From NCBI GenBank assembly GCA_015075425.1, contig JABTUL010000002.1:806001-870000 (forward strand): a stretch of DNA of 64,000 nucleotides, read 5' to 3'. Of the stretch, positions 38,809-60,567 are shown one piece after another (positions within the stretch are counted from its first letter, which is position 1; each line of letters begins with the position of its first letter). The notes under the pieces were generated by a model, which saw nothing but the letters and a program-made list of their open reading frames with translations, did no database searches and was not told where the DNA came from. The DNA comes from Spirochaetales bacterium (GTDB lineage: Bacteria > Spirochaetota > Leptospiria > Leptospirales > Leptonemataceae). The translations under genes and the position numbers were made by a program.

Positions 38809-39534
38809 TTACTTCTCTGCGCGACCGGTCATGGGCACAAAACGCACGGGGATATTGCGTTCTACAGATATTCTTGATTTACTGTCTTTTCTGAATACCA
38901 TAAGCTGTTGCACTGCAGTTCCCACAGGGGATACCATTTTTCCCCCCGCTTTGAGTTGTGCGAGGAGGGGCTCCGGCACGCTGGCCGGAGCCGCCGTGAG
39001 CATGATCCGGTCAAAGGGAGCGTCCTCTGGCCACCCGGCGTAACCATCACCGCAACGCAGCATGACATTCCTGTATTTGAGCTCTTCGAGCAGGATTTTA
39101 CGGGACCTCTCGCAAAGCTCGGGAACGATTTCTATGGAAAAAACGGCTGTTTGTAACTCCGCAAGCACTGCCGTCTGATACCCTGAACCGGTGCCAATTT
39201 CAAGAACCCGCATCCCCGGTGCAGTATCTAAGAGTTCCGTCATAAGGGCTACAATGTAGGGTTGAGAAATCGTTTGCTCCTTGCCGATGGGCAGGGGCCC
39301 GTCATAGTAGGCTTCTTTCCGATAGGCATCGGGAACAAAGCGGTGGCGCTCGATGCGGAACATGGCGGACAGGACCGGCTCGTTTTTGATGCCGCGTCCC
39401 CGTAATTGCTCCTGCACCATTCTTTCCCGTGCGCTGAGAAAATGATCCTGAGCTTCCATGCCGCCACGGCAGCCTGCCGCAAGGACAGCGAGCAACAGAC
39501 ACAATTTCCGGTCCATAAAAATCGGGAATCTCAC
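38809..39534 (-). CDS. pcm: Protein-L-isoaspartate O-methyltransferase with lipoprotein-type signal
   Basis: This 241-residue protein methylates isoaspartyl residues in damaged proteins so that they can be repaired. Family motifs are FVPDAYRKEAYYDGPLPIG, QTISQPYIVALM, the SAM-binding VLEIGTGSGYQTAVLA and IMLTAAPASVPEPLL. Unusually, residues 8-22 form a basic-hydrophobic signal ending in LAAGC (Cys22), a good lipobox, so it may be exported and lipid-anchored. A start at Met7 would keep the signal. The ATG overlaps the parB stop (ATGA). Confidence 0.87.
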   Translation of the reverse strand: MRFPIFMDRKLCLLLAVLAAGCRGGMEAQDHFLSARERMVQEQLRGRGIKNEPVLSAMFRIERHRFVPDAYRKEAYYDGPLPIGKEQTISQPYIVALMTELLDTAPGMRVLEIGTGSGYQTAVLAELQTAVFSIEIVPELCERSRKILLEELKYRNVMLRCGDGYAGWPEDAPFDRIMLTAAPASVPEPLLAQLKAGGKMVSPVGTAVQQLMVFRKDSKSRISVERNIPVRFVPMTGRAEK

Positions 39535-40391
39535 TTTACACCCATCAGCTGCAGCATGCGATCCAGGTCTTCCAGAGTTGCATACCGAAGGCTGACCTTG
39601 CCACCGCCATTGCGGCGATGAGCAATTTCCACACGGGTGGAAAAGCGATTCTGGAGTTTTTTTTCCACGCTGAGCAGGTTAGGATCTTTGCGACCGGCCA
39701 CCTTTTTCGTAGCCGGACCGCTCTGCAATCGGGCCACCTCATCTTCCACGCGGCGCGCTGACCAGCCTTCGCTGACAATGCGAGTTGCCAGACGCAAAAG
39801 AAGGCGGCGGTCCGCGATGGCGAGTAGCGGCCGGGCCTGTCCGGCCGTAAGTTTCTTCTGATCAATCAGGTTCTGGATTTCTTCAGGGAGTTTAAGCAAA
39901 CGCAGCAGGTTGGTTACAGTGGAACGATCCTTGCCCACTTTCTCCGCAATATCCTGGGGCTTCAGATCATGGCCAAGAAGCTTCTCGTAGGCCCGCGCTT
40001 CTTCCATGGGCGTGAGTTCTTCGCGCTGAATGTTTTCAATGATCCCCATTTCCAGGGCCTGCAGATCGTTTACTTTCTTTACTATGGCCGGGATACTTTT
40101 GAAGCCCGCTTTCTTGCAGGCTATCCAGCGCCGCTCACCGGAAATGAGCTGAAATTTATCTCCCAGGGGCCGGACAATAATCGGTTCAATCAATCCTACT
40201 GAAAATAATGTTTTTACCAATTCATCGATCTCTGCGGCGGAGAATCTTTTGCGCGGCTGATCCGGATTCGGAACTATGACGGCCGGCGAAAGTTCCTGGT
40301 ACTCCGGATGCTTTTTGATTTCAATAGCTGCCCGGCCCTCGCTGCCTGGCAGAAGATTAGAGAGTCCTTTGCCCAGTCCCTTACGCGCCAC
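39531..40391 (-). CDS. parB: Chromosome partition protein ParB
   Basis: This 286-residue protein starts at a GTG (40391) with a strong GGAGGTG ribosome site. The N-terminus ARKGLGKGLSNLLPG is typical. The CTP-binding/ParB-N core contains PNPDQPRKRF, LISGERRWIACK, and the helix-turn-helix follows with LKPQDIAEKVGKDRSTVTNLLRLL. ParB loads at parS, spreads along DNA and works with ParA to segregate origins. A near-perfect parS lies 4 kb away in mnmG. Confidence 0.95.
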   Translation of the reverse strand: MARKGLGKGLSNLLPGSEGRAAIEIKKHPEYQELSPAVIVPNPDQPRKRFSAAEIDELVKTLFSVGLIEPIIVRPLGDKFQLISGERRWIACKKAGFKSIPAIVKKVNDLQALEMGIIENIQREELTPMEEARAYEKLLGHDLKPQDIAEKVGKDRSTVTNLLRLLKLPEEIQNLIDQKKLTAGQARPLLAIADRRLLLRLATRIVSEGWSARRVEDEVARLQSGPATKKVAGRKDPNLLSVEKKLQNRFSTRVEIAHRRNGGGKVSLRYATLEDLDRMLQLMGVK

Positions 40392-41142
40392 GAAGCACCT
40401 CCATAGCCAGTCGGGCATAGGCCTGGGCTCCGCTTGATTCGGGAGCATAGTCGCCTATGAATTTTCCGAACGATGGAGCCTCAGACAGACGGACGTTGCG
40501 CGGAATCACGGATTCGTAAACAAGCTCCTGGAAGTGATTGCGCACATCTTGCGTCACCTGATTGGCCAGAGCCGTCCGCGAATCGTACATGGTGAGAACC
40601 ACACCTTCAAGCCGGAGAGCGGGATTGAGATTTTGCTGTACCAGTTGAATGACTTTCATGAGCTGGGTCAAACCCTCCAGGGCATAGTATTCTGTTTGCA
40701 GGGTGATGAGCACTCCCTGCGCGGCACTGAGTGCGTTCAGGGTAAGGATTCCCAGGTTGGGCGGGCAGTCGATATAAACAAAATCATAGCGCGCGGCCAC
40801 CTGCGCCAGATGACCTTTCAACAAAAATTCACGTTCTTCCATCCCGAGCATGTCCACTTCAATTCCTGAAAGGTGAACGTTTGCTGGCAGAATGTCCAGG
40901 CCGGCTATGTTTGTGCTGACAATGGCCTCCGCGGCAGAGATGTCCCCGAGGAGCATGTGGTAGATGGTACGCTCCAGGTCCTCAGTGGCCAGTCCCAGTC
41001 CAGAGGAAGCGTTCCCCTGCGGATCAATGTCCACAAGCAGAACTTTCTTACCCTGACGTGCCAGATACCCGCAAAGGTTTACGCAAGTTGTGGTCTTACC
41101 AACCCCTCCCTTCTGATTTGCAACGGCGATGATTCGGTTCAT
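40381..41142 (-). CDS. parA: Chromosome partition ATPase ParA (Soj)
   Basis: This 253-residue MinD/ParA-type ATPase has the deviant Walker A KGGVGKTTT at residues 10-18, switch I VDIDPQGNASSGLG, Walker B-like FVYIDCPPNLG and the LTMYDSRT segment. It drives origin segregation together with ParB. The ATG at 41142 overlaps the rsmG stop by ATGA; the longer open frame upstream is read-through of rsmG sequence. Its stop overlaps the parB start by 11 bp. Confidence 0.95.
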   Translation of the reverse strand: MNRIIAVANQKGGVGKTTTCVNLCGYLARQGKKVLLVDIDPQGNASSGLGLATEDLERTIYHMLLGDISAAEAIVSTNIAGLDILPANVHLSGIEVDMLGMEEREFLLKGHLAQVAARYDFVYIDCPPNLGILTLNALSAAQGVLITLQTEYYALEGLTQLMKVIQLVQQNLNPALRLEGVVLTMYDSRTALANQVTQDVRNHFQELVYESVIPRNVRLSEAPSFGKFIGDYAPESSGAQAYARLAMEVLRGA

Positions 41143-41819
41143 GGGCTCTCCAGACGCTGGACTTCCAGATCTTTTTTCAATTCTTTCCAGGCGCGCGGGT
41201 AGCCTTTCCTGGGTTGTGCGACTTTCTGGCAAAGCAGAATCTTGCGCTCTCCGTCCTGCCAGGCGGGAGGCACCCATTCCTCCTGGCTGAGCCCGAGATG
41301 CGAGACGGAAACCACCTTTGTGGCTCCCACCGGCAGGGCAAGCCACCCATGGCTTAAGAGTGCTGGCAAAACCAGTTCGAGCACATACGGGTAGGGCAGA
41401 AGCGCGCGGGCTGTAATGAGATTTGCGCAGGCTTTCTGTTCATCTATGCGGGCATAGCGAATGTCCACACCTGGCAAATCCAGTTCCCGGGATTCGAGGG
41501 CGCGGGCCAGGTGGCCCAGTTTTCGCCGGCTGGAATCAAGAAGAATGGTGGTGGGTGGACGATGAAGGCAGGCAAAGAACATCCCGGGCAGTCCCGGGCC
41601 TGTGCCCGCATCGAGGACTGTGCCCTGAATAACGCCTTTTTCGTGCAGTGCCCTCAGGAATTCCAGTGATTCCCGAACATGGCGCTGGAAAATTCGCGAC
41701 TGGTCGTGGAGTGAAAAGAAAAGCGAGCCGTTTTCCAGCAGAAAACGGTAACAGGACTGGACCCGCTGCAGGTCAAAGAGATCCGCAAAGGACTCGAGGT
41801 CATCGGCTACGTCCTGCAT
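41139..41819 (-). CDS. rsmG: 16S rRNA m7G527 methyltransferase RsmG (GidB)
   Basis: This 226-residue protein modifies N7 of G527 in 16S rRNA. It has the RFLLENGSLFF and HVRESLEFL helices, the SAM loop VLDAGTGPGLPGMFFA and LDSSRRKLGHLARAL. It heads the rsmG-parA-parB block, the usual origin-proximal order in many bacteria. mnmG, often adjacent, is separated here by two other genes. Divergent from the YD-like secreted protein gene, with 89 bp between their starts. Confidence 0.9.
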   Translation of the reverse strand: MQDVADDLESFADLFDLQRVQSCYRFLLENGSLFFSLHDQSRIFQRHVRESLEFLRALHEKGVIQGTVLDAGTGPGLPGMFFACLHRPPTTILLDSSRRKLGHLARALESRELDLPGVDIRYARIDEQKACANLITARALLPYPYVLELVLPALLSHGWLALPVGATKVVSVSHLGLSQEEWVPPAWQDGERKILLCQKVAQPRKGYPRAWKELKKDLEVQRLESP

Positions 41820-43852: not shown

Positions 43853-45733
43853 TTATCCCGGTCGGGACTGTCGCGTCAGAGCGTAGTAGAGCAGATCCAT
43901 ATCCGGCGGATCAATTCCAGAAATCCCCATGGCCTGCTCAAGGTTCAAGGGTCGGAACCGTTTCAACTTCTCCCGGGCTTCTGTCTTGATACCGGGAACG
44001 GCATCAAAATCAAAATCAGAAGGAATCTGCGTATCTTTGTAGCGGAGTCGTAACTGAATCTTTTCCTGTTCCCTTTCAATATAACCGGAATATTTGATTT
44101 CCATCTCCAGCACCGCACGCTGGTCCGCATGGACCTGCTCGAGTTCCGGAACAAGAGGCAGAAGGTCATCGATGGTGATCTCCGGGCGTCGCAAGAATCG
44201 TTCAAGGCTAATGCCAGCGCCGGCATTTCCCCGGGTGATCCCTTTACTTTCGATCAGGGCATCCAGCTCTGCTGAGGGCTTAAGTCCCATCTGAAAGACT
44301 TTCCTGAGCCGCAAAACAGCCGCATACTTTTCTTCCATAGCTTCCAGCGTTTCACGTGAAACAAGGCCCAGTGCATGCCCGTAGCGCATCAGCCGCTGAT
44401 CGGCATTGTCCTGACGGAGCAGCAGCCGATGCTCTGCCCTGCTGGTGAACATCCGGTAGGGATCTTCCACCCCACGTGTTACCAGATCATTGATGAGGAC
44501 GCCAGCATACGCTTCTCCCCTTCCCAGAACAAAAGCCGGCTCTTTGCGTGTGGCCTGCAGCGCATTGATTCCCGCCAGCAGTCCCTGGGCCGCTGCCTCT
44601 TCGTATCCCGTAGTTCCGTTGATCTGTCCGGCAAAGTAAAGGCCGCGAATTTTGCGCGTTTGCAAATCAAAAGACAGTTCCCGCGGATCCACGTAGTCGT
44701 ATTCCACAGCATAGCCGGGTCGCATGAGCACGGCTTCTTCCAGTCCGGGGATGCTACGAATGTATTCCCACTGCACTTCTTCAGGCAGGCTGGTGGAGAC
44801 TCCGTTCAGATAAACTTCACCGGTATGGATACCTTCCGGCTCGATGAATATCTGATGCCTTTCGCGGCCGGCAAAACGAACGACTTTGTCTTCGATCGAC
44901 GGGCAGTAGCGCGGCCCGCTCCCCTGGATCTGTCCCGAGTACATGGCCGATTTTCCCAGATTTTCCCGAATGATCGCATGAGTCTTTTCATTGGTGTAAG
45001 TGAGGTGGCAACTGATTTGTGGTCCGGTGATTGCCGTTGTGGAATAAGAAAATGGATCCGGTTCACTGTCCGGCTTCTGCTCTTCGCAACGGGAAAAGTC
45101 GATACTGTGTTTCTGGACGCGCGGAGGTGTTCCCGTTTTGAGTCGGGCCAGCGTAAAGCCAAACTTTTCCAGACATTCAGAAAGGCCCAGGGCCGGGCTT
45201 TCTGCAATCCGACCGGCCGCCTGCTTTTGATCGCCAATGTGGATGAGACCGCGCAAAAAAGTTCCTGTGGTCAGGATGATTCGGTCAGCTAAGAATTCAA
45301 AACGACGACCGGTCACAACACCTTTCACGGCGTTGTCCTCTATCAGGAGACCTTCGCAGGTATCCTGCCGCAGACTGAGATTGGGCAGGGCTTCCAGGGC
45401 CCATTTCACCTGGTTCTGGTAGGCTTTCTTTTCCGCCTGCGCTCGCGGTGCCCAGACGGCCGGTCCGCGTGATCGGTTCAACATTTTAAAATGAATTCCG
45501 GTTTCATCAATGACCCGGCCCATTAGCCCGCCCAGGGCATCGATTTCGCGGACCATGTGACCTTTGGCGATACCACCGATGGCCGGATTGCAGGACATTT
45601 GTCCGATTGTATCCAGGTTCATGGTGATAAGCAGTGTCCGCCCACCGCCCCGCGCAGCTATAGCTGCCGCTTCAGCGCCGGCGTGGCCACCACCTACAAC
45701 AATAATGTCAAAACGATTCGGATAGGAACTCAT
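43853..45733 (-). CDS. mnmG: tRNA uridine-5-carboxymethylaminomethyl modification enzyme MnmG (GidA)
   Basis: This 626-residue FAD protein works with MnmE to add carboxymethylaminomethyl groups to wobble U34 of several tRNAs. The N-terminal dinucleotide fold [12 protein letters not shown] is followed by the GidA signatures [22 protein letters not shown] and [32 protein letters not shown] and the tRNA-binding C-terminal domain close the protein. Length matches the family (about 630). A parS-like site lies inside the gene at 44348-44363. Confidence 0.96.
44348..44363. promoter_or_regulatory. parS: parS centromere-like site
   Basis: The sequence CGTTTCACGTGAAACA matches the near-universal bacterial parS (TGTTTCACGTGAAACA) at 15 of 16 positions, with only the first base different. 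It is a palindrome inside the mnmG coding region, about 4 kb from parAB and 13-14 kb from the candidate oriC. It is the expected nucleation site for the ParB encoded here. Confidence 0.88.
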
Positions 45734-45874
45734 GGACTTTGCGAGAATTTAACAGGCAGGGAATCCTGCGACTTTATTCTTCCGGTTACGACTCGACCGG
45801 GCGGCGCGCAAACAAAGTCTTATGTCCCCTAAACTCTCTTGCACGGGGCAATTTCTGCCGATCCTTTTCACAGT

Positions 45875-48148
45875 ATGCAGCGCAGTATCATCATCATTGG
45901 CGGTGGCCTTTTACAAACTCGTCTCATCGAAGCAGCAAAGACCTACGATCTTCATACGATTGTGTTCGATCGCAATTCCGGAGCTCCGGGCCTTGTCCAT
46001 GCGGATGAAGTGGTCCTTGTGGACACACTGGACGCTGAAGCAGCCCGGACCGCTGCTCTGAACCTGGCCGGGCGCTTCAACATCTGCGGTGTTCTTACGG
46101 CCGGTACGGATGCCAGTCAAACCGTAGCCGCCATTGCTGCCGAACTCAAGCTGCCGGGAGTTTCACGGGAAACAGCACGCGCCGCGAGCAATAAAATCAT
46201 CATGCGTGAAACTCTGCGCCGCGCCGGTCTGCCGGTTCCGGATTTTCGCCCGGTCTATTCCTTAAACGATGCCCGCTCAGCTTTGCGCGAAATGTCCCTG
46301 CCACTCGTACTCAAGCCCGCAGAAAACATGGGCGCGCGCGGTGTGATTCTCATCCGTGACCGCTCTGAGCTGGAGGCCGCATTCCGACATACGCGCAACC
46401 ACTTGCGATCGCCCGAGCTGATCATCGAAGAGTTCATGCCGGGCCCGGAACTTTCCGTCGACGCACTGGCCTGGCGTGGAGGCCTGAGAAAAAAGATCAC
46501 CGGCATTGCGGACCGGCACATCACTGGAGAGCCCTTCTTTATAGAAACCGGCCACACCATGCCTTCGACACTGGACGTTAAGATACTGGAGGAAGCGGAG
46601 CAGGTAATGTTTGCAGCGATGGATGTGCTCGGAATTCGAGAGGGAGCGGGGAAGGGCGATCTAAAATTTTCCGGGGGCCGGATAATGATAGGAGAGATTG
46701 CGGCTCGTCTTTCCGGCGGCTTCATGTCCTCACATACTTACCCGTATTCCAGCGGAGTGAACCTCTATCGCGCGGCCATCCAGATTGCACTGGGTGAAGA
46801 GCCGGATGCCCTGGAGCCCACACAAAGTTTATACGCGCTGGAAAGAGCCATCATCGCTCCGGCCGGAAAAGTCCAGCACATTGATGGACGCCCGCTGCAA
46901 AATCCCGAAGAATTCCCCGGTCTTAAAGATGTCATTTTAGTCCGATCCAGCGGCGATATCGTGCCGCAGCTCACAAGCAACGTTGATAAAATGGGAAACA
47001 TCATCGTCACGGCAGAAAATTTATCCGTGGCAGAAGAGCGGGCCCGTTCCGTCCTGGGCGCGATAACCGTGCAAGTCGATTCCAGTTACGCCTGGACACG
47101 CGAAACCCTTGAGGCCAGAGCGCGGGAACGCTTTTCTCCCGATGTCTGCCACGTGTGCAAGAGCTGCGATGGGCAGAACTGCGCGAGCGGGATTCCCGGC
47201 ATGGGTGGACCAGGACAGATGCAGGGCTTTCGCGACAATTCCAGTGCACTTTTACAGTACACCATCGTCCCCCGTTACCTTCAGTCTGCAGAAAAAGCAG
47301 ATGCCAGCTTTGAATTTCTGGGTCGTAAACTCAGCATGCCCATTATGGCTGCGCCGATGACCGGCGCCACAACCAATTTCCAGAATGCAATCAGCGAATT
47401 CGACCTTGGCCTGGCGCTCGCCCGCGCTTCGCGCGCTGAAGATACCATAGCCTGGATCGGCGACGGGTCTTCTCCGGAGAAATGGAAGACCATCGAATCA
47501 ATCCTGGAAGCGATGGAAGGTTTTGCCATCTTGATCCTCAAACCCCGCGCCGACCTCTCTGAGATCAAACGCCGCATCCGTATTGCGGAACGCCTGAAAG
47601 TCCCTGCCGTGGGCATGGACGTGGATGCCCGCCTGCTCCGCACCATGCAAAAGGAGAGTCTGCCTCTGGACCGGGACACCTTACTTGAGATTCGCCGGAG
47701 TACCGACCTTCCCTTTATTACTAAAGGAATTTTATCATCAGCGGACGCCGTCCATGCTCGCGCAGCCGGTTCCGATGTCCTGGTGGTGAGCAATCACGGG
47801 GGCCGCATTCTGGACTCTATGCCAGGGGCCGCCCGGGTCCTCCCCCGCATCGCCGACGAATTTGCCGGTGAACTGATGATACTGGCTGACGGAGGAGTTC
47901 GCTCCGGTGCCGATGCTTTCAAATACATTGCACTCGGGGCAAGGGCAGTTCTGACCGGCCGGCCGCTGGCCATAGCAGCTGTAGGGGGGCAGGAGAGCGG
48001 GGTACGGTTTGTTCTGCGTGCCTATCGCAGCGAACTCATTCATACCATGCAGGTCTGCGGTACGCCAGAGCTTTCCTCTATAAATAGAGATTACCTGGAA
48101 TATCTTCCACAGTCAGAACAAACTGCGGTAGGCCAGAAAGAGGGCTGA
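45875..48148 (+). CDS. ATP-grasp ligase / FMN-dependent alpha-hydroxyacid dehydrogenase fusion
   Basis: This is a 757-residue two-part protein. Residues 1-415 are an ATP-grasp enzyme: N-terminal nucleotide-like fold IIIIGGGLLQTRLIEAA, the lid region LVLKPAENMGARGV, EEFMPGPELSVDAL and the metal-site GDLKFSGGRIMIGEIAARLSGG-like segment. A linker holds four cysteines (CHVCKSCDGQNC, Cys425, 428, 431, 436). Residues 440-757 resemble FMN-binding alpha-hydroxyacid oxidases, with AAPMTG, a VGMDVDA strand, FITKGIL, the catalytic pair His641/Arg644 in VVSNHGGR and ILADGGVRSGADAFKYIALGA. Standalone FMN enzymes with such a Cys linker exist, but joining to ATP-grasp is unusual. The product may be a ligated, then oxidised, small molecule; the pathway is unknown. 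Confidence 0.85.
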   Translation: MQRSIIIIGGGLLQTRLIEAAKTYDLHTIVFDRNSGAPGLVHADEVVLVDTLDAEAARTAALNLAGRFNICGVLTAGTDASQTVAAIAAELKLPGVSRETARAASNKIIMRETLRRAGLPVPDFRPVYSLNDARSALREMSLPLVLKPAENMGARGVILIRDRSELEAAFRHTRNHLRSPELIIEEFMPGPELSVDALAWRGGLRKKITGIADRHITGEPFFIETGHTMPSTLDVKILEEAEQVMFAAMDVLGIREGAGKGDLKFSGGRIMIGEIAARLSGGFMSSHTYPYSSGVNLYRAAIQIALGEEPDALEPTQSLYALERAIIAPAGKVQHIDGRPLQNPEEFPGLKDVILVRSSGDIVPQLTSNVDKMGNIIVTAENLSVAEERARSVLGAITVQVDSSYAWTRETLEARARERFSPDVCHVCKSCDGQNCASGIPGMGGPGQMQGFRDNSSALLQYTIVPRYLQSAEKADASFEFLGRKLSMPIMAAPMTGATTNFQNAISEFDLGLALARASRAEDTIAWIGDGSSPEKWKTIESILEAMEGFAILILKPRADLSEIKRRIRIAERLKVPAVGMDVDARLLRTMQKESLPLDRDTLLEIRRSTDLPFITKGILSSADAVHARAAGSDVLVVSNHGGRILDSMPGAARVLPRIADEFAGELMILADGGVRSGADAFKYIALGARAVLTGRPLAIAAVGGQESGVRFVLRAYRSELIHTMQVCGTPELSSINRDYLEYLPQSEQTAVGQKEG
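46159..46174. promoter_or_regulatory. Degenerate parS-like site
   Basis: AGTTTCACGGGAAACA differs from the parS consensus at two positions (first base, and one base of the central CACGTG). It lies 1.8 kb from the better site in mnmG, inside the ATP-grasp/FMN gene. It could be a weak ParB site or chance within coding sequence. Confidence 0.3.
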
Positions 48149-49330
48149 ATAAGCCGCGTACAGGCGGATGCGTTCGCGGTCCAGGGGAATGGAGTACAGC
48201 AATGTCTCACTGCGTTCCGGTCCCACGTAGGCTAAATGCACGGTACCCACAGGCTTCTCTGCTGTGCCGCCATCAGGCCCGGCAATGCCTGTAATGCTCA
48301 GGGCATGATCCACGTGCAAAGCTGCACGGGCGCCTCGGGCCATGGCAAGAGCACACTCGGCACTGACAGCTCCCTGTTCTGAAAGGATTGCGGGATCCAC
48401 CTGGAGTACCCGCTCTTTAACACTATTTGCGTAAGCGACGATCCCCCCCTTGAAGTACGCCGAGGCCCCGGGCGCATCAGTCAAAATGCGACCGACCAGG
48501 CCGCCTGTGCAGGACTCGGCAAGACCGAGAGTCTCGCTTCGCTTGAGTAGCTCCGCAGCTAAAAGCTCTTCCACGGGAGCGACGAGCACCTGTTCCCGGA
48601 ACGCATTCCCCAGCCACTCCTTCAGCGTGACCAGCTCTGGCAAAGAAGCCTGATAAACGCTGAACTTGATCGACCCGTATCCGGCCGTCACCCCCCAGTC
48701 CAGGCTCAGACCCAACCCGGAAAATTCCCGCTGAAAGCGCGACTCTCCGACTCCATAAATGTAGTAATGCTGACTGGCAGAGCGATCCGTGGGATAATGC
48801 TTCTGAAGATCCGGAAGAACACCGCCCTGAAACATGGCCCGCATTTCCTGCGGTACTCCGGGGAGAGCGTAAATGGATTTGCTGTGCACTCTTACGCAGA
48901 GTCCGGGAGCAAGTCCCGCTTCATTTTTGATCACTTGAGCGAGGCGCAAAGTTCGCACCTGGCGGCGTGCCTCCTCTATGCGCAGCTGACTTTTCATTCG
49001 CCGGGCCGATGCCTGGAGTTTTTGAAATGCAGCCGGATCTTCAACAATCTCATCATTCGTCAAGAGGGCCAGAACATCAATGGTCAGATCGTCAGCAGTG
49101 GGCCCGAGTCCACCACTCATGATCAGAGCAGGAGCTGGACCTTTTAAGAATTGTTCAAGGGTTTCCAGTAAAAGCTCCGTATTATCCGGGAGAATATGCT
49201 GCGCTGCGATTTCGTAGCCGGCCGCGACCAGTTCACGGGCCATGTAAGGGCCATTGCCATCGATGGAACGTCCGGAGCTCAGTTCCGTACCGGTGGAAAG
49301 CAAGACGATCCGTGTTTTCAAGACCGACAT
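48113..49330 (-). CDS. cinA: CinA-like protein (MoCF domain plus nicotinamide mononucleotide deamidase domain)
   Basis: This 405-residue protein has an N-terminal molybdopterin-binding-like domain (STGTELSSGRSIDGNG, MSGGLGPTADDLT) linked to ADP-ribose pyrophosphatase activity in relatives. The C-terminal PncC-type deamidase domain (about 245-405) has GLAESCTGGLVGRILTD, GGIVAYANSVKERVL and SITGIAGPDGGTAEKPVGTV. It should recycle nicotinamide mononucleotide in NAD metabolism. The gene converges with the fusion gene with a 36-bp overlap and its ATG lies within the end of the TPR gene upstream. Confidence 0.92.
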   Translation of the reverse strand: MSVLKTRIVLLSTGTELSSGRSIDGNGPYMARELVAAGYEIAAQHILPDNTELLLETLEQFLKGPAPALIMSGGLGPTADDLTIDVLALLTNDEIVEDPAAFQKLQASARRMKSQLRIEEARRQVRTLRLAQVIKNEAGLAPGLCVRVHSKSIYALPGVPQEMRAMFQGGVLPDLQKHYPTDRSASQHYYIYGVGESRFQREFSGLGLSLDWGVTAGYGSIKFSVYQASLPELVTLKEWLGNAFREQVLVAPVEELLAAELLKRSETLGLAESCTGGLVGRILTDAPGASAYFKGGIVAYANSVKERVLQVDPAILSEQGAVSAECALAMARGARAALHVDHALSITGIAGPDGGTAEKPVGTVHLAYVGPERSETLLYSIPLDRERIRLYAAYSALFLAYRSLF

Positions 49331-56315: not shown

Positions 56316-56900
56316 TCAGAGATTCAAAGCGTAGAGAACGGGATCCATCCCTTTCAGGTCCTGAACGCAGTCCTCAATGCGCGTCCAGTAGCTCTCGACA
56401 AAAATTCCATTGCGCATAGCTCCCGGACCGGCATTGTAAGCCAGTGCTACCTCTCTGGCTGTGAGGAACTGCCCGGCAAGGTAGTTCAGGTAGTCAACCC
56501 CGGCACGGACATTGTTCTCTGTCAGAAAAAGCGAATGTCCTCTTTCCTGGCTCTGCCCGGTGTCATTCATCCAGTTAGCAGTGTCCGGTTTGACCTGCAT
56601 GTAACCCCGGGCATCAGCGCGAGAGACTGCATAGCGATGAAAGCGGGACTCTGTATCCACAAACCCGGCCAGTAGCAAAAGACGATCCTGTGGCTCAATC
56701 CCGGGAAGCACTAACCGTTTGGATTCCCGGTGCAGGGCTTTCAGCAAATCCCGTCTTTCCGGGTCTTTAAGCTCTGGATTACGGGTCGCTATCAGGCCCT
56801 CCACGCGCTGCACCAGAGCACGATCCGCAACAGGGGCGGCCCCGGACAGGAAGAGCAGTGCTGTCAAAATCAGCAAAAATCGAGCATAAATTCTTTGCAT
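56316..56900 (-). CDS. Lytic transglycosylase, SLT family
   Basis: This 194-residue protein has a signal peptide (to about residue 20). The SLT fold shows the catalytic glutamate in FVDTESRFHRYAVSR, then ADARGYMQVKPDTANW, NNVRAGVDYLNYLAG and EVALAYNAGPGA. It cleaves peptidoglycan between MurNAc and GlcNAc without water, forming anhydro ends, in the periplasm. It is divergent from dnaA, 86 bp away. Confidence 0.85.
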   Translation of the reverse strand: MQRIYARFLLILTALLFLSGAAPVADRALVQRVEGLIATRNPELKDPERRDLLKALHRESKRLVLPGIEPQDRLLLLAGFVDTESRFHRYAVSRADARGYMQVKPDTANWMNDTGQSQERGHSLFLTENNVRAGVDYLNYLAGQFLTAREVALAYNAGPGAMRNGIFVESYWTRIEDCVQDLKGMDPVLYALNL

Positions 56901-56986
56901 CGCACCAGTTTTTTATGCGCCGCACCATTGTCGATTCTCTTTTTCCTTTCTGCTTGCCGGTCAGCAGGGTATCTTTTTGCCAAACT

Positions 56987-58060
56987 ATGCACGAATGGGC
57001 GGAACTTCTGCAGGCATTGAAGGAGGATATGCCCTTCGATTTCCTGGAGCCGGTTTTCCACAGTTTAAAGCCCCGGCTATTGGGCCCGGGACGGCTCCAG
57101 CTGGAGCTGGCCGATGTCGGGCTCATGCCGGTGGCCAGTCGCCTGGAACGAACTCTGCAAAAAAAATGGCGATCTATGCAGGGTCCTGAGGCAACCCTTG
57201 AGCTTGTTGCCGCCGAATGGAGGCCGGAACTGCTGCGCGGAGCTGGCAATGCAGCCGCCATGGACCTGGCAGAGAAATTTAGCCGGGGAACCATTCGGTC
57301 ACTGTATATCCAGGGTGGCCCGGGCCGGGGAAAGACGGCACTTCTACGGTCCCTGAAAGGTCACTACATCCCCGCCCGGGAGCTCCCCAGAAAAAAGCAG
57401 AATGTCAGCGGCCCTCTACTCCTTGATGATTTTGACCTTTTGCGCAACTATGATGCGCTGGCAGAGTGGATTTCGAAACTACTGGACCAGGGCCAGCCCG
57501 TTTGCCTTGCCGGCCGACATTTTCCTGATGGGCGGGCCCTGAGTGAACGCCTGCAGAGTCGAATTGAGTCCATGCCCAGGGCCCGCCTGGGTCGGCCCGA
57601 CGAGCCCACATGCTTTAGCTATTATGAACGACTCCGTGGCTCGGCACCGGATTTGGCCACCCGGGCTCTGCTGAGTCAGGCCAGGAATTTCCGCGATATA
57701 GAAAGGATTGCCTACCAGTACCATTTTCCTTTCCCCGAGAGTCCTGCCCCGGAACACGTCGCCGTAGAATCGATACAGGAGGCAGTCGCTGATCAGTATC
57801 GGATTACTACTACTGATTTACTTTCGAGCAGTCGTCGCAGCGAATTCATCCCCCCCCGACAGGTGGCCATGTATCTGGCCGCGAACTACTCCGGGTTGTC
57901 CAAGTCAGCGGTCGCTCGTGCCTTTCGCCGCAGCGATCACAGTACTGTAATCCACGCCTGTCAGCGCGTCCAGGCTGCTTACACTTTCTATGAGCCCGTT
58001 TTAACGGCCATTGCGAATAAACTGCGGATAACCCTTCACATTCGGGCCACTACAACGTGA
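56987..58060 (+). CDS. dnaA: Divergent, contracted chromosomal replication initiator DnaA
   Basis: This 357-residue protein is clearly a DnaA by layout and by the downstream dnaN-recF. It has a domain I-like helix (HEWAELLQALKEDMPFDFLEP), Walker A GGPGRGKT (residues 110-117), Walker B LLLDDFDLL (Asp147/148), an arginine-finger-like LSERLQSRIE and a domain IV with RRSDHSTVIHACQRV, where DnaA normally has GRDHTTV. It is roughly 90-110 residues shorter than usual: only about 31 residues separate the Walker A lysine from Walker B (about 57 in E. coli). The start at 56987 lacks a strong ribosome site, but longer frames overlap the divergent gene. Confidence 0.88.
   Translation: MHEWAELLQALKEDMPFDFLEPVFHSLKPRLLGPGRLQLELADVGLMPVASRLERTLQKKWRSMQGPEATLELVAAEWRPELLRGAGNAAAMDLAEKFSRGTIRSLYIQGGPGRGKTALLRSLKGHYIPARELPRKKQNVSGPLLLDDFDLLRNYDALAEWISKLLDQGQPVCLAGRHFPDGRALSERLQSRIESMPRARLGRPDEPTCFSYYERLRGSAPDLATRALLSQARNFRDIERIAYQYHFPFPESPAPEHVAVESIQEAVADQYRITTTDLLSSSRRSEFIPPRQVAMYLAANYSGLSKSAVARAFRRSDHSTVIHACQRVQAAYTFYEPVLTAIANKLRITLHIRATTT
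57054..57062 (+). promoter_or_regulatory. DnaA-box-like sequence inside dnaA
   Basis: TTTTCCACA differs from the E. coli-type DnaA box TTATCCACA at one position. It lies 67 bp into dnaA and could serve autoregulation. Single occurrence in coding sequence, so chance is possible. Confidence 0.25.
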
Positions 58061-58324
58061 GTAACGGAAGGATTTCCGTCCGGGAATTTAACAAGGAATG
58101 GCGATTGTGCCGCCTCTGGCTGCCGGACGGCCAACCACTCACAGAGTATTCACAGCGCTAAGGGAGCCTGGATGCCGGCCTTTCGCCGTTTTTCGCCTGA
58201 ACACTGGATCCATTCACAGAACTTTCGCGCAAAGAACCTGAAAGGAAACAGGGTACAGTACAGGTACCTTTTTTAAGTTGTCATCTAAAGCGTGCTCACA
58301 TGAATTGCTGCCTGAGGCTCCAAA
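58061..58324. other. oriC: Candidate replication origin (oriC) between dnaA and dnaN
   Basis: This non-coding region holds three in-line variants of the DnaA box ending in TTCACA or CTCACA: CCACTCACA (58135-58143), GTATTCACA (58146-58154, one mismatch to TTATTCACA) and CCATTCACA (58210-58218). The first two are 11 bp apart, one helical turn. A T-rich segment follows near 58269-58285. Position between dnaA and dnaN, gene orientations and the nearby parS and parAB agree with an origin. Confidence 0.6.
58252..58274 (+). terminator. Intrinsic terminator after dnaA
   Basis: GGTAC (58252-58256) pairs with GTACC (58264-58268) across a 7-nt loop and is followed directly by six T residues (58269-58274). 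The shape is that of a short rho-independent terminator separating dnaA from dnaN. Confidence 0.55.
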
Positions 58325-59461
58325 GTGTCAACCCTTCTCAAATTTATAGTGGATCGCGCTGCGTTTCAAAAAGCCCTGCAACAGATCGATAATATCATAC
58401 CGGCAAGAGAAATTCGCTCCGTAGTCAGCAATTTCTTACTGGAAGCCAGAGATAATCAACTCACCCTATCCGCTACAGATCTTGAAATAAGCATTCAAAC
58501 AACCATAGAGGCCAGAGTGGAAATCGCCGGCAGCATCGCTCTGCCTGCGCGCAAATTGAGTGAAACTGTGCGTGTGTTTCAATCCAGAGAATTGCCTTTT
58601 ACTGTGGATGAAAATCATGCAGCGATCCTTGTCGACGAGATCAATGATTCTCGCACAACTATATCGTTAAACGGGCAGAGCAGTGAGGAGTTTCCGGAAA
58701 TTCCCTGGCCGGCAAGCAAAGATTATATTTCTGTCTCTGGCGCCCATTTGATTGCGATGATGAGAAAAACGGCCTACGCCATAGCCGAGGAAGATGCACG
58801 CTACATGTTCAACGGCCTCTTCATGCATGCAGACGGAAAAAAACTGACGTTTGTGGCCACAGATGGACGCCGCCTGTCCAAAGTGGACAGGACCATGGAA
58901 AAGAATCTGCAACTCGGGAAAGGTATCATTGTTCCCGGAAAGGCTGTTCGTGAACTGATGAAAGTCATTGAACCGGACCGGGATTGTGACCTGTATTACA
59001 GTGCAGCAGACCAGCGGCTTTTTTTCCGTACCGGCAACATCCAGCTTCAGACCCGGCTGATCGAAGGAAATTTTCCGGATTACAAACAGGTGATTCCGGC
59101 CCAGATTGGATCTACAGCCACAATCAACAGGCAGCAACTGGAAAACTCCATCAGAAAGGTTGCTGTGGTGGCCATCGACGCCAGCCGACAGATACAGCTG
59201 GACATAAAAAAGGATCAGTTGCACTTGAAATCCGCCACACCGGATCTGGGAAGGGGTGACAATTCTTTGCCCTGCCAGTATGGTGGAGAAGCAATGAGCG
59301 TAGCCTTTAATTCGATTTATATTCAGGATATACTAAAAATTATAGAAGCCGATGATATCCGCATAGGCTTTACTTCCTCCAGTTCGCCGGCCATCGTAAT
59401 GGATCCGGGCGACCCTGATTTTCTGGCCGTCGTCATGCCCATGAAATTAGATGCTGCTTGA
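58325..59461 (+). CDS. dnaN: DNA polymerase III beta subunit (sliding clamp)
   Basis: This 378-residue clamp has three similar subdomains. It contains RAAFQKALQQIDNIIPAR, LSATDLEISIQTT, the middle-domain AYAIAEEDARYMFNGLF, FVATDGRRLSKVD and the final VMPMKL. It tethers polymerase III to DNA. The start is a GTG with TGAGG about 10 nt upstream. Its stop overlaps the recF TTG (TTGA). Confidence 0.96.
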   Translation: MSTLLKFIVDRAAFQKALQQIDNIIPAREIRSVVSNFLLEARDNQLTLSATDLEISIQTTIEARVEIAGSIALPARKLSETVRVFQSRELPFTVDENHAAILVDEINDSRTTISLNGQSSEEFPEIPWPASKDYISVSGAHLIAMMRKTAYAIAEEDARYMFNGLFMHADGKKLTFVATDGRRLSKVDRTMEKNLQLGKGIIVPGKAVRELMKVIEPDRDCDLYYSAADQRLFFRTGNIQLQTRLIEGNFPDYKQVIPAQIGSTATINRQQLENSIRKVAVVAIDASRQIQLDIKKDQLHLKSATPDLGRGDNSLPCQYGGEAMSVAFNSIYIQDILKIIEADDIRIGFTSSSSPAIVMDPGDPDFLAVVMPMKLDAA

Positions 59462-60567
59462 AAATTACCGGTCTATGCTTAAAAAATTTTCGTAATTACC
59501 GGGATCTTGACCTTGATCTGGATCGCCGTCTGGTTTTTTTTACCGGTAACAATGGCAGTGGAAAAACCAATATTCTGGAAGCACTGGCCCTTGTCTCCCA
59601 GGGACGTTCGTTTCGTGACGCAGGGGATCCGGATTTAATTCGGCATGGTGAAAGTTCTTTTTATGTCGAAGTTCGCTTTGAAAATGTCAGCTCTCAGAAG
59701 ATTGATTACGGTTTTCAGCAGCGCGGCGATCTGAAGCAACGTCGCATCAAGCATAACGGCAAGATTCTGCGCTCCCGTGCGGAGCTTCTGGGACTCCTGC
59801 CTGCTGTTGCGTTTTTGCCAGCAGATTTACAGATCATAGAAGGCGGAACACAGAGTCGTAGAAGATTCTTTGATTCTATCCTGGGCTTCGCCGACCCGGT
59901 GTATTTGCAGCATTTGCTGGCGTACAACCGGGCACTCAAACAGAGAAACCTTCTATTAAAGCAGATTCGCCGTGATAGACTCTCGACGTCACTTCTGGAT
60001 CCCTGGGATGCACAACTGCATCTGCATGGACAGGCGATCATTGAGGCGCGGGAGGCATTCTTGCCGGACTTTCAGCAGCTTTTCTCCCGCGCCCTTGCGG
60101 AAATTTCTCAAGGAGAGGACCAGGTTACCATTCACTACGGGCACGAAGACGGGAATCTTTCCGCGAGGCTGGCCAGCGGTCGCTTCCCGGATATTCAGGC
60201 CGGACTGACCCGTTGCGGACCACACCGCCACAGCTATCAATTCCAGTATCGCGACCGTGATATTGTGCTGACCGGCAGTCAGGGCCAGCGGCGATCGGTG
60301 GTTCTCTCCCTCCGTTTTGCTCAATTCCGCCTGCTCTGTCAGCGCTTGAACTCCCCGCCCGTGCTTTTCATAGACGATGTTCTCAATGAGCTGGACCAGG
60401 GCCGCAGGTCATCCTTTATAGAACTCATCCGGACGAGCGATCAGGCCTTTTTGACCAATCCCGATGCGGAAAGTTTTTCGCGTTTGATCACGGAATTTGC
60501 TGGCAGTTGTCGTATCTTTCACGTTCATGCAGGGGAAGTGCTGGAGAATTCCCGTAATGGCCTATGA
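59458..60567 (+). CDS. recF: DNA replication and repair protein RecF
   Basis: This 369-residue SMC-like ATPase loads RecA at gapped DNA. It has the N-terminal CLKNFRNYRDLDLDL, Walker A FTGNNGSGKTNILEALAL, the signature SQGQRRSVVLSLRFAQF and Walker B PVLFIDDVLNELD. It starts at a TTG that overlaps the dnaN stop, so the two are translated together. Confidence 0.95.
   Translation: MKITGLCLKNFRNYRDLDLDLDRRLVFFTGNNGSGKTNILEALALVSQGRSFRDAGDPDLIRHGESSFYVEVRFENVSSQKIDYGFQQRGDLKQRRIKHNGKILRSRAELLGLLPAVAFLPADLQIIEGGTQSRRRFFDSILGFADPVYLQHLLAYNRALKQRNLLLKQIRRDRLSTSLLDPWDAQLHLHGQAIIEAREAFLPDFQQLFSRALAEISQGEDQVTIHYGHEDGNLSARLASGRFPDIQAGLTRCGPHRHSYQFQYRDRDIVLTGSQGQRRSVVLSLRFAQFRLLCQRLNSPPVLFIDDVLNELDQGRRSSFIELIRTSDQAFLTNPDAESFSRLITEFAGSCRIFHVHAGEVLENSRNGL

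Follow-up and report, generated by a model that had tools for sequence, protein, structure and literature searches.

The window, by which we mean the whole 64,000-nucleotide stretch of DNA analysed here, contains a gene in which an ATP-grasp ligase is fused to a Cys-motif FMN enzyme. On balance we favour the view that this gene helps to build the glycan decorating spirochaete flagellins, by way of an acylation step. Membership of the ATP-grasp family in the flagellin-glycan set is fairly probable; a place for the FMN step in the same pathway is tentative, and rather less than probable. The domains, the conserved catalytic residues, an operon link, a co-loss with glycosylation genes and a co-loss with the acceptor sites were all computed here. 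To our knowledge, no gene has yet been assigned to the making of the unusual acyl group in the spirochaete flagellin glycan.

The gene, its parts and its two neighbours are located in the window as follows:
43853 to 45733, minus strand: mnmG/gidA, the divergent neighbour (Pfam GIDA).
45875 to 48148, plus strand: the whole gene, a fusion of ATP-grasp ligase, four-Cys linker and FMN_dh, 757 aa (open reading frame, homologues and AlphaFold2 model).
45875 to 47080, plus strand: ATP-grasp ligase half, residues 1-402, comprising pre-ATP-grasp, ATP-grasp_4 and LAL_C2 (Pfam, 3vot, alignment).
47147 to 47182, plus strand: four-Cys motif C425-x2-C428-x2-C431-x4-C436, then GIPGMGG; possible site for an Fe-S cluster or a metal (alignment).
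47213 to 48100, plus strand: FMN_dh TIM barrel, residues 447-742 (Pfam FMN_dh; HAO1 6w45).
47723 to 47725, plus strand: Lys617 (TKGIL), counterpart of the flavin-contacting Lys (invariant; aligned with HAO1).
47792 to 47806, plus strand: N640-H641-G-G-R644, the catalytic His/Arg signature of FMN_dh (invariant; aligned with HAO1 SNHGAR).
48113 to 49330, minus strand: cinA, the convergent neighbour (Pfam CinA and MoCF_biosynth).

The open reading frame is single and uninterrupted, running on the plus strand from an ATG at 45875 (an in-frame TTG at 45839 could also serve as the start) to its end at 48148. More than 100 independent genomes carry the same fusion over its full length. These homologues, 34-53% identical across Spirochaetota, extend to a few MAGs outside the phylum, in Nitrospinota and Hydrogenedentota. 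The earlier note had thus been right to describe one polypeptide, and the frameshift or assembly error joining two genes that it had raised as an objection is excluded by the presence of full-length homologues in many genomes. The AlphaFold2 model (35 homologues, pLDDT 90) consists of two complete folds, with pLDDT below 50 only at residues 441-446 and 749-757; the arrangement of the two domains is uncertain (pTM 0.68). For the linker between them, whose structure the note had proposed to predict, the model gives these complete folds on either side but low confidence, 54-71, around the Cys loop itself.

The immediate surroundings say little. The mnmG/gidA gene adjoins the fusion homologue in six further neighbourhoods examined, and cinA overlaps the 3' end of the fusion gene by 36 bases; neither is thought to be a pathway member, and as context they are uninformative. 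The window is plausibly close to the replication origin. By eye, ParB/ParA-like ORFs at 39534-41346 and a dnaA-dnaN-recF-like run at 56858-60564 (likely dnaA at 56.9 kb; dnaN-like and recF-like ORFs, judged by their start sequences, at 58.3-60.6 kb) place it near oriC; the coarse GC skew has no sharp switch. A position near the origin, from which the note had taken a hint of a pathway, is therefore plausible but uninformative for function, and the informative context is instead the spiro-SPASM/FlaA operon of other spirochaetes, described below.

The N-terminal half is predicted, from sequence and model, to be a carboxylate-amine ligase of the L-amino-acid-ligase type that forms an amide. Pfam places ATP-grasp_4 (PF13535) at residues 141-284 (51.8 bits against a cut-off of 27) and LAL_C2 at residues 325-401 (40.1 bits against 29.4), and the L-amino acid ligase of PDB 3vot is matched both by sequence and by Foldseek (TM 0.86 of target). 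Across the alignment of 35 full-length homologues K107, K147, D262, E274 and R278 are invariant. The ATP-grasp ligand set, comprising the two lysines together with D262 and E274 at the metal-ligand positions, is accordingly intact, which upholds the carboxylate ligase domain of the earlier note and removes its second worry, that the metal ligands might be missing. The first acidic ligand, usually Glu, is Asp throughout this family. The nearest solved structures, the L-amino acid ligases BL00235 (3vot), RizA (4wd3) and BacD (3vmm), have the fold and the domain order, LAL_C2 included, in common with the window protein. Aligned by fold, the window protein and 3vot are 23-24% identical, and these Bacillus dipeptide ligases stand alone, whereas the window protein is fused.

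The C-terminal half has the TIM barrel and the Lys/His/Arg set in common with the FMN-dependent alpha-hydroxy acid oxidases and dehydrogenases (HAO1, lactate oxidase, MftD). Pfam FMN_dh (PF01070) matches residues 598-742 above its cut-off, with 207 bits, and a second stretch further upstream, and the half fits HAO1 (PDB 6w45) with a Foldseek TM of 0.85 of target; K617, N640-H641-G-G-R644 and D672-G-G-x-R676 are invariant in the 35-sequence alignment. It differs from HAO1, however, in several respects: Tyr132 and Gln130 align with Leu553 and Ala551, the Arg167 segment has no alignable counterpart, the barrel is shorter, and the Cys motif occupies the place of the Tyr26 lid. In HAO1, Tyr26, Tyr132 and Arg167 bind the substrate. 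On its sequence, this half reads as homologous but with a changed active site, not as a classical hydroxyacid oxidase; since the site is altered relative to HAO1, a substrate other than a simple hydroxy acid is conceivable. The FMN hydroxyacid dehydrogenase of the earlier note is thus borne out in its catalytic Lys, His and Arg, but it is not an ordinary member of its class. A weak TIGR02151 match to IPP isomerase type 2 was rejected as generic barrel similarity.

The four cysteines are invariant in all 35 full-length homologues. The note had placed them in a linker between the domains; the motif is indeed strictly conserved, but it belongs to the FMN enzyme and not to the fusion: free-standing FMN homologues from anaerobes carry it too. 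The FMN enzyme alone, Cys motif included, is widespread in anaerobes. These unfused enzymes (annotated 'alpha-hydroxy-acid oxidizing protein'; Clostridia, Thermodesulfovibrio, Desulfovibrionales) are 37-44% identical to the window protein over residues ~410-741. A flagellar context was looked for around their genes and none was seen. At seven loci, in several Firmicutes and one member of Sumerlaeota (L207, L215, L217, L224, L225, L231 and L236, of which L225 is the Sumerlaeota locus), the free enzyme adjoins a Cof-type HAD phosphatase, and the same pair occurs in the spirochaete G090 (L119); it is possible that the two form an unrecognised two-gene module.

Homologues of the ATP-grasp half were found in 214 of 247 spirochaete genomes, and the full-length fusion in many spirochaete families. 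What is conserved above all is the ATP-grasp half; the FMN half has, in several lineages, decayed to a vestige. Treponema-type families have ORFs of ~520-600 aa, in which the FMN part is a C-terminal vestige ending in an RGGxQG-like stretch. In Brachyspira the FMN part is long, with the Cys motif and the His/Arg signature gone; at L089-L090 and L191-L198 it is an inactive-looking barrel, a dead domain kept in place. Some genomes with a vestigial or inactive-looking FMN part have a separate Cys-motif FMN enzyme, and in several others no free copy was found at E<1e-12, which indicates that the FMN step is not universal. The fused FMN domains group weakly in trees (81/64), and the free Treponema enzymes form a separate deep clade (100/100). 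A free FMN enzyme of Clostridia type, which looks laterally acquired, is present in G092 and in the Treponema-type genomes G198 and G221.

The fusion is also present beyond Spirochaetota, in four MAGs of Nitrospinota, one of Hydrogenedentota and one unassigned groundwater bacterium. At L172 (JAGOBX010000032.1), filed under Candidatus Dependentiae, is a fusion that groups with the spirochaetes in the tree; this genome of 3.8 Mb has 12 flagellin matches and may be misbinned or misassigned. At L175:3264-6299 and L180:5102-8247 (Nitrospinota and the groundwater bacterium) the fusion lies beside an HpcH/HpaI aldolase-family gene. That aldolase was considered as a source of a 2-keto-3-deoxy acid and rejected, a homologue being present in only 75 of the 247 spirochaetes and the surroundings not being conserved; it remains a lead only.

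The clearest context comes from nine Treponema-type families, where the ATP-grasp gene lies in a conserved operon-like run with the genes for FlaA and for spiro-SPASM (radical SAM family TIGR04321). The order is xseA (divergent), then spiro-SPASM, GT-like protein, SpsF/SpsG/methyltransferase, ATP-grasp, amidase, GerMN and FlaA, not all members being present in each genome. In G090, of 1.14 Mb, genes for a HAD phosphatase and the free FMN enzyme come next after the spiro-SPASM run, and the ATP-grasp gene is elsewhere. Taken with the Treponema-type operon, this arrangement ties both halves, in different genomes, to one gene run. In all, this T. pallidum-sized genome retains the ATP-grasp gene, spiro-SPASM, SpsF/SpsG/methyltransferase and the free Cys-motif FMN enzyme (L098:9059-10849 and L119:2735-9718), and the keeping of the set in so strongly reduced a genome suggests an important function.

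In the window genome, spiro-SPASM, SpsF and an SpsG-like gene (a weak SpsG/PseG match, E 0.065) are found at G000:C1:876 kb, and the fusion gene is unlinked to this run. The same is mostly true of the lineages with an intact fusion, the exceptions being G097 (~8 kb apart) and G093 (six genes apart); in Leptospiria, the neighbours include LipB/LplA-like genes. Spiro-SPASM was not found over the cut-off in the genomes outside Spirochaetota that carry the fusion. In the Hydrogenedentota MAG an MptE-like gene starts 19 bases 3' of the fusion, and Maf-like genes as well as flagellin were found in all seven genomes that carry the fusion and are not among the named spirochaetes.

The distribution of these genes points the same way. 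Over the same 247 genomes, spiro-SPASM was found in 216 and Maf/MptE-like genes in 224 (with five Maf-like copies in the window genome), and the 23 genomes without Maf, in families f38, f45 and f49, are also without ATP-grasp and spiro-SPASM. No flagellin was found in f45 and f49. In f38 flagellin is present, and we infer from the 0.9-1.8 Mb genomes and the single main flagellin that this family is Borrelia-like. The two-by-two table for ATP-grasp and spiro-SPASM (207/7/9/24) gives a Fisher p of 6e-20, a value that counts genomes; phylogenetically the co-loss amounts to about three events, not 247. The remaining mismatches among ATP-grasp, spiro-SPASM and Maf are mostly in incomplete genomes.

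The flagellins themselves were also compared. T. denticola FlaB is glycosylated within the motifs VEVSQL and DRIAS, which Leptospira FlaB1-3 retain and in which Borrelia has substitutions (PMC7431986). Both motifs are present in the flagellins of the window genome, and in nearly all glycosylation-positive families sampled the motif Ser is kept in at least one flagellin, in most of them both Ser; variants include A for V/S in f10 and f37 and N for the second Ser in f40. All seven Borrelia-like genomes, by contrast, read IEIEQL or IEVEQL and IAD or VAD, so that both acceptor serines are lost. The co-loss of the genes offers an explanation for Borrelia flagellins without the modification motif.

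Three other roles have to be weighed against these observations. The protein could be a general amino-acid or dipeptide ligase, making a peptide, an amide or a cofactor (for example a metallophore or a redox-buffer thiol), with the FMN half oxidising an alpha-hydroxy acid and the flagellar link incidental. We consider this unlikely: it would suit the closest solved relatives, the position of the gene alone beside housekeeping genes in many spirochaetes, and the fusion genomes outside the phylum without spiro-SPASM, but it leaves unexplained the joint absence with Maf and spiro-SPASM, the FlaA operon and the acceptor-serine loss in Borrelia-like genomes.

A part in modifying the cell wall or another envelope polymer of spirochaetes appears improbable. 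Families f45 and f49, without flagellin, are without the gene though all have envelopes, and in the Borrelia-like genomes the gene has disappeared along with Maf and the flagellin serines. Such a part would account for the N-acetylmuramoyl-L-alanine amidase and GerMN genes adjoining in the Treponema-type operon; sugars of spore coats or LPS are also products of SpsF/SpsG-type enzymes, and work on surface sugars has described several nonulosonic acids produced by L. interrogans (PMC3438082).

A route to lipoate or lipoyl metabolism, or to another sulfur-related cofactor, is very improbable: LplA-B_cat proteins adjoin the gene in families f3 and f4 and at L188, MnmA is directly upstream in f2, and LipB/LplA, an MBL-fold hydrolase and MnmA lie near it in some Leptospiria, but such neighbours vary by family and are absent elsewhere, there is no lipoyl context around Cys-motif FMN enzymes elsewhere, and G090 (1.1 Mb, T. 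pallidum-like in size) keeps both halves, T. pallidum not being known to have pyruvate dehydrogenase.

Under the preferred reading, acylation of the flagellin glycan, the ATP-grasp half would activate a small carboxylic acid with ATP as the acyl phosphate and couple it to an amine of a nonulosonic-acid-like amino sugar, giving an N-acyl (amide) substituent. The FMN half may set the redox state at C2 of the acid, between alpha-hydroxy and alpha-keto, and the four cysteines, as a metal or Fe-S centre, would probably wire it to an electron carrier. The SpsF-like cytidylyltransferase, the SpsG/PseG-like protein, the methyltransferase and the spiro-SPASM radical SAM protein would supply and finish the sugar, which Maf-type transferases would attach to Ser/Thr of FlaB. 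In Treponema the product would be the acyl part of the 450-Da glycan. We put only a low probability on this exact chemistry.

For T. denticola, the acyl part is reportedly 2-methoxy-4,5,6-trihydroxyhexanoyl, a methylated 3-deoxyhexonic acid. With a 3-deoxyhexonic acid, the C2 hydroxyl would be the kind of position on which FMN_dh enzymes act, and an amide on the second amine would require a carboxylate-activating ligase. With this acyl structure, the mass sum is 274.116 + 176.068 = 450.185, against the reported 450.2 Da (PMC9481697), which fits a nonulosonic acid bearing one N-acetyl group and, on the second amine, the acyl part. As the actual donor, an acid of the methylated 3-deoxyhexonic type is a doubtful candidate. 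Equally speculative is the widest form of the proposal, a phylum-wide acylation branch in which one polypeptide would make a 3-deoxyhexonic-type alpha-hydroxy acid (Fe-S/FMN half) and join it through an amide bond to a nonulosonic acid (ATP-grasp half), a branch lost with spiro-SPASM, Maf and the acceptor serines in the Borrelia lineage. The analysis nonetheless provides a phylum-wide candidate gene set (ATP-grasp/FMN, spiro-SPASM, SpsF/SpsG/methyltransferase and Maf) and places the spiro-SPASM family in a functional context for the first time. In T. denticola, filament assembly and motility both require the FlaB glycan (PMC9481697), and in Leptospira the glycans of FlaB1 seem to attach the sheath to the core (PMC13144727).

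The fusion is already known as an annotation. LA2659 of L. interrogans, probably the orthologue of the window gene, is listed in an expression table as 'Isopentenyl-diphosphate delta-isomerase, FMN-dependent; ATP-grasp fold', without function (PMC2964297). This line was all that our literature search on the fusion and spiro-SPASM returned; no functional account of the fusion was found in the papers searched, in keeping with the undescribed pathway that the earlier note had suspected.

Two precedents link ATP-grasp proteins to flagellin modification. SfmE (SO_3265), of 412 aa, is an ATP-grasp_4 protein encoded in the flagellin-modification operon sfmABCDE of Shewanella oneidensis, where the glycan comprises a 274-Da mono-N-acetyl nonulosonic acid and a 236-264-Da O-methylated part, apparently without nitrogen; deletion of sfmE causes partial loss of flagellin mass, the shift being slightly smaller than in the other deletions (PMC3765264). 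We liken it to the window protein by domain and role, SfmE being without the FMN domain or Cys motif, and its operon encoding a TPP-enzyme, a reductase and a methyltransferase, whereas the spirochaete operon has spiro-SPASM/SpsF/SpsG. In C. difficile type B, the mutant of CDR20291_0245 (ATP-grasp, PF13535) has a flagellin glycan that lacks nothing but its terminal peptidylamido-sugar (PMC5207246). This protein is in the same Pfam family as the ATP-grasp half studied here, but its glycan differs, being a GlcNAc-rhamnose chain, and it has no FMN fusion.
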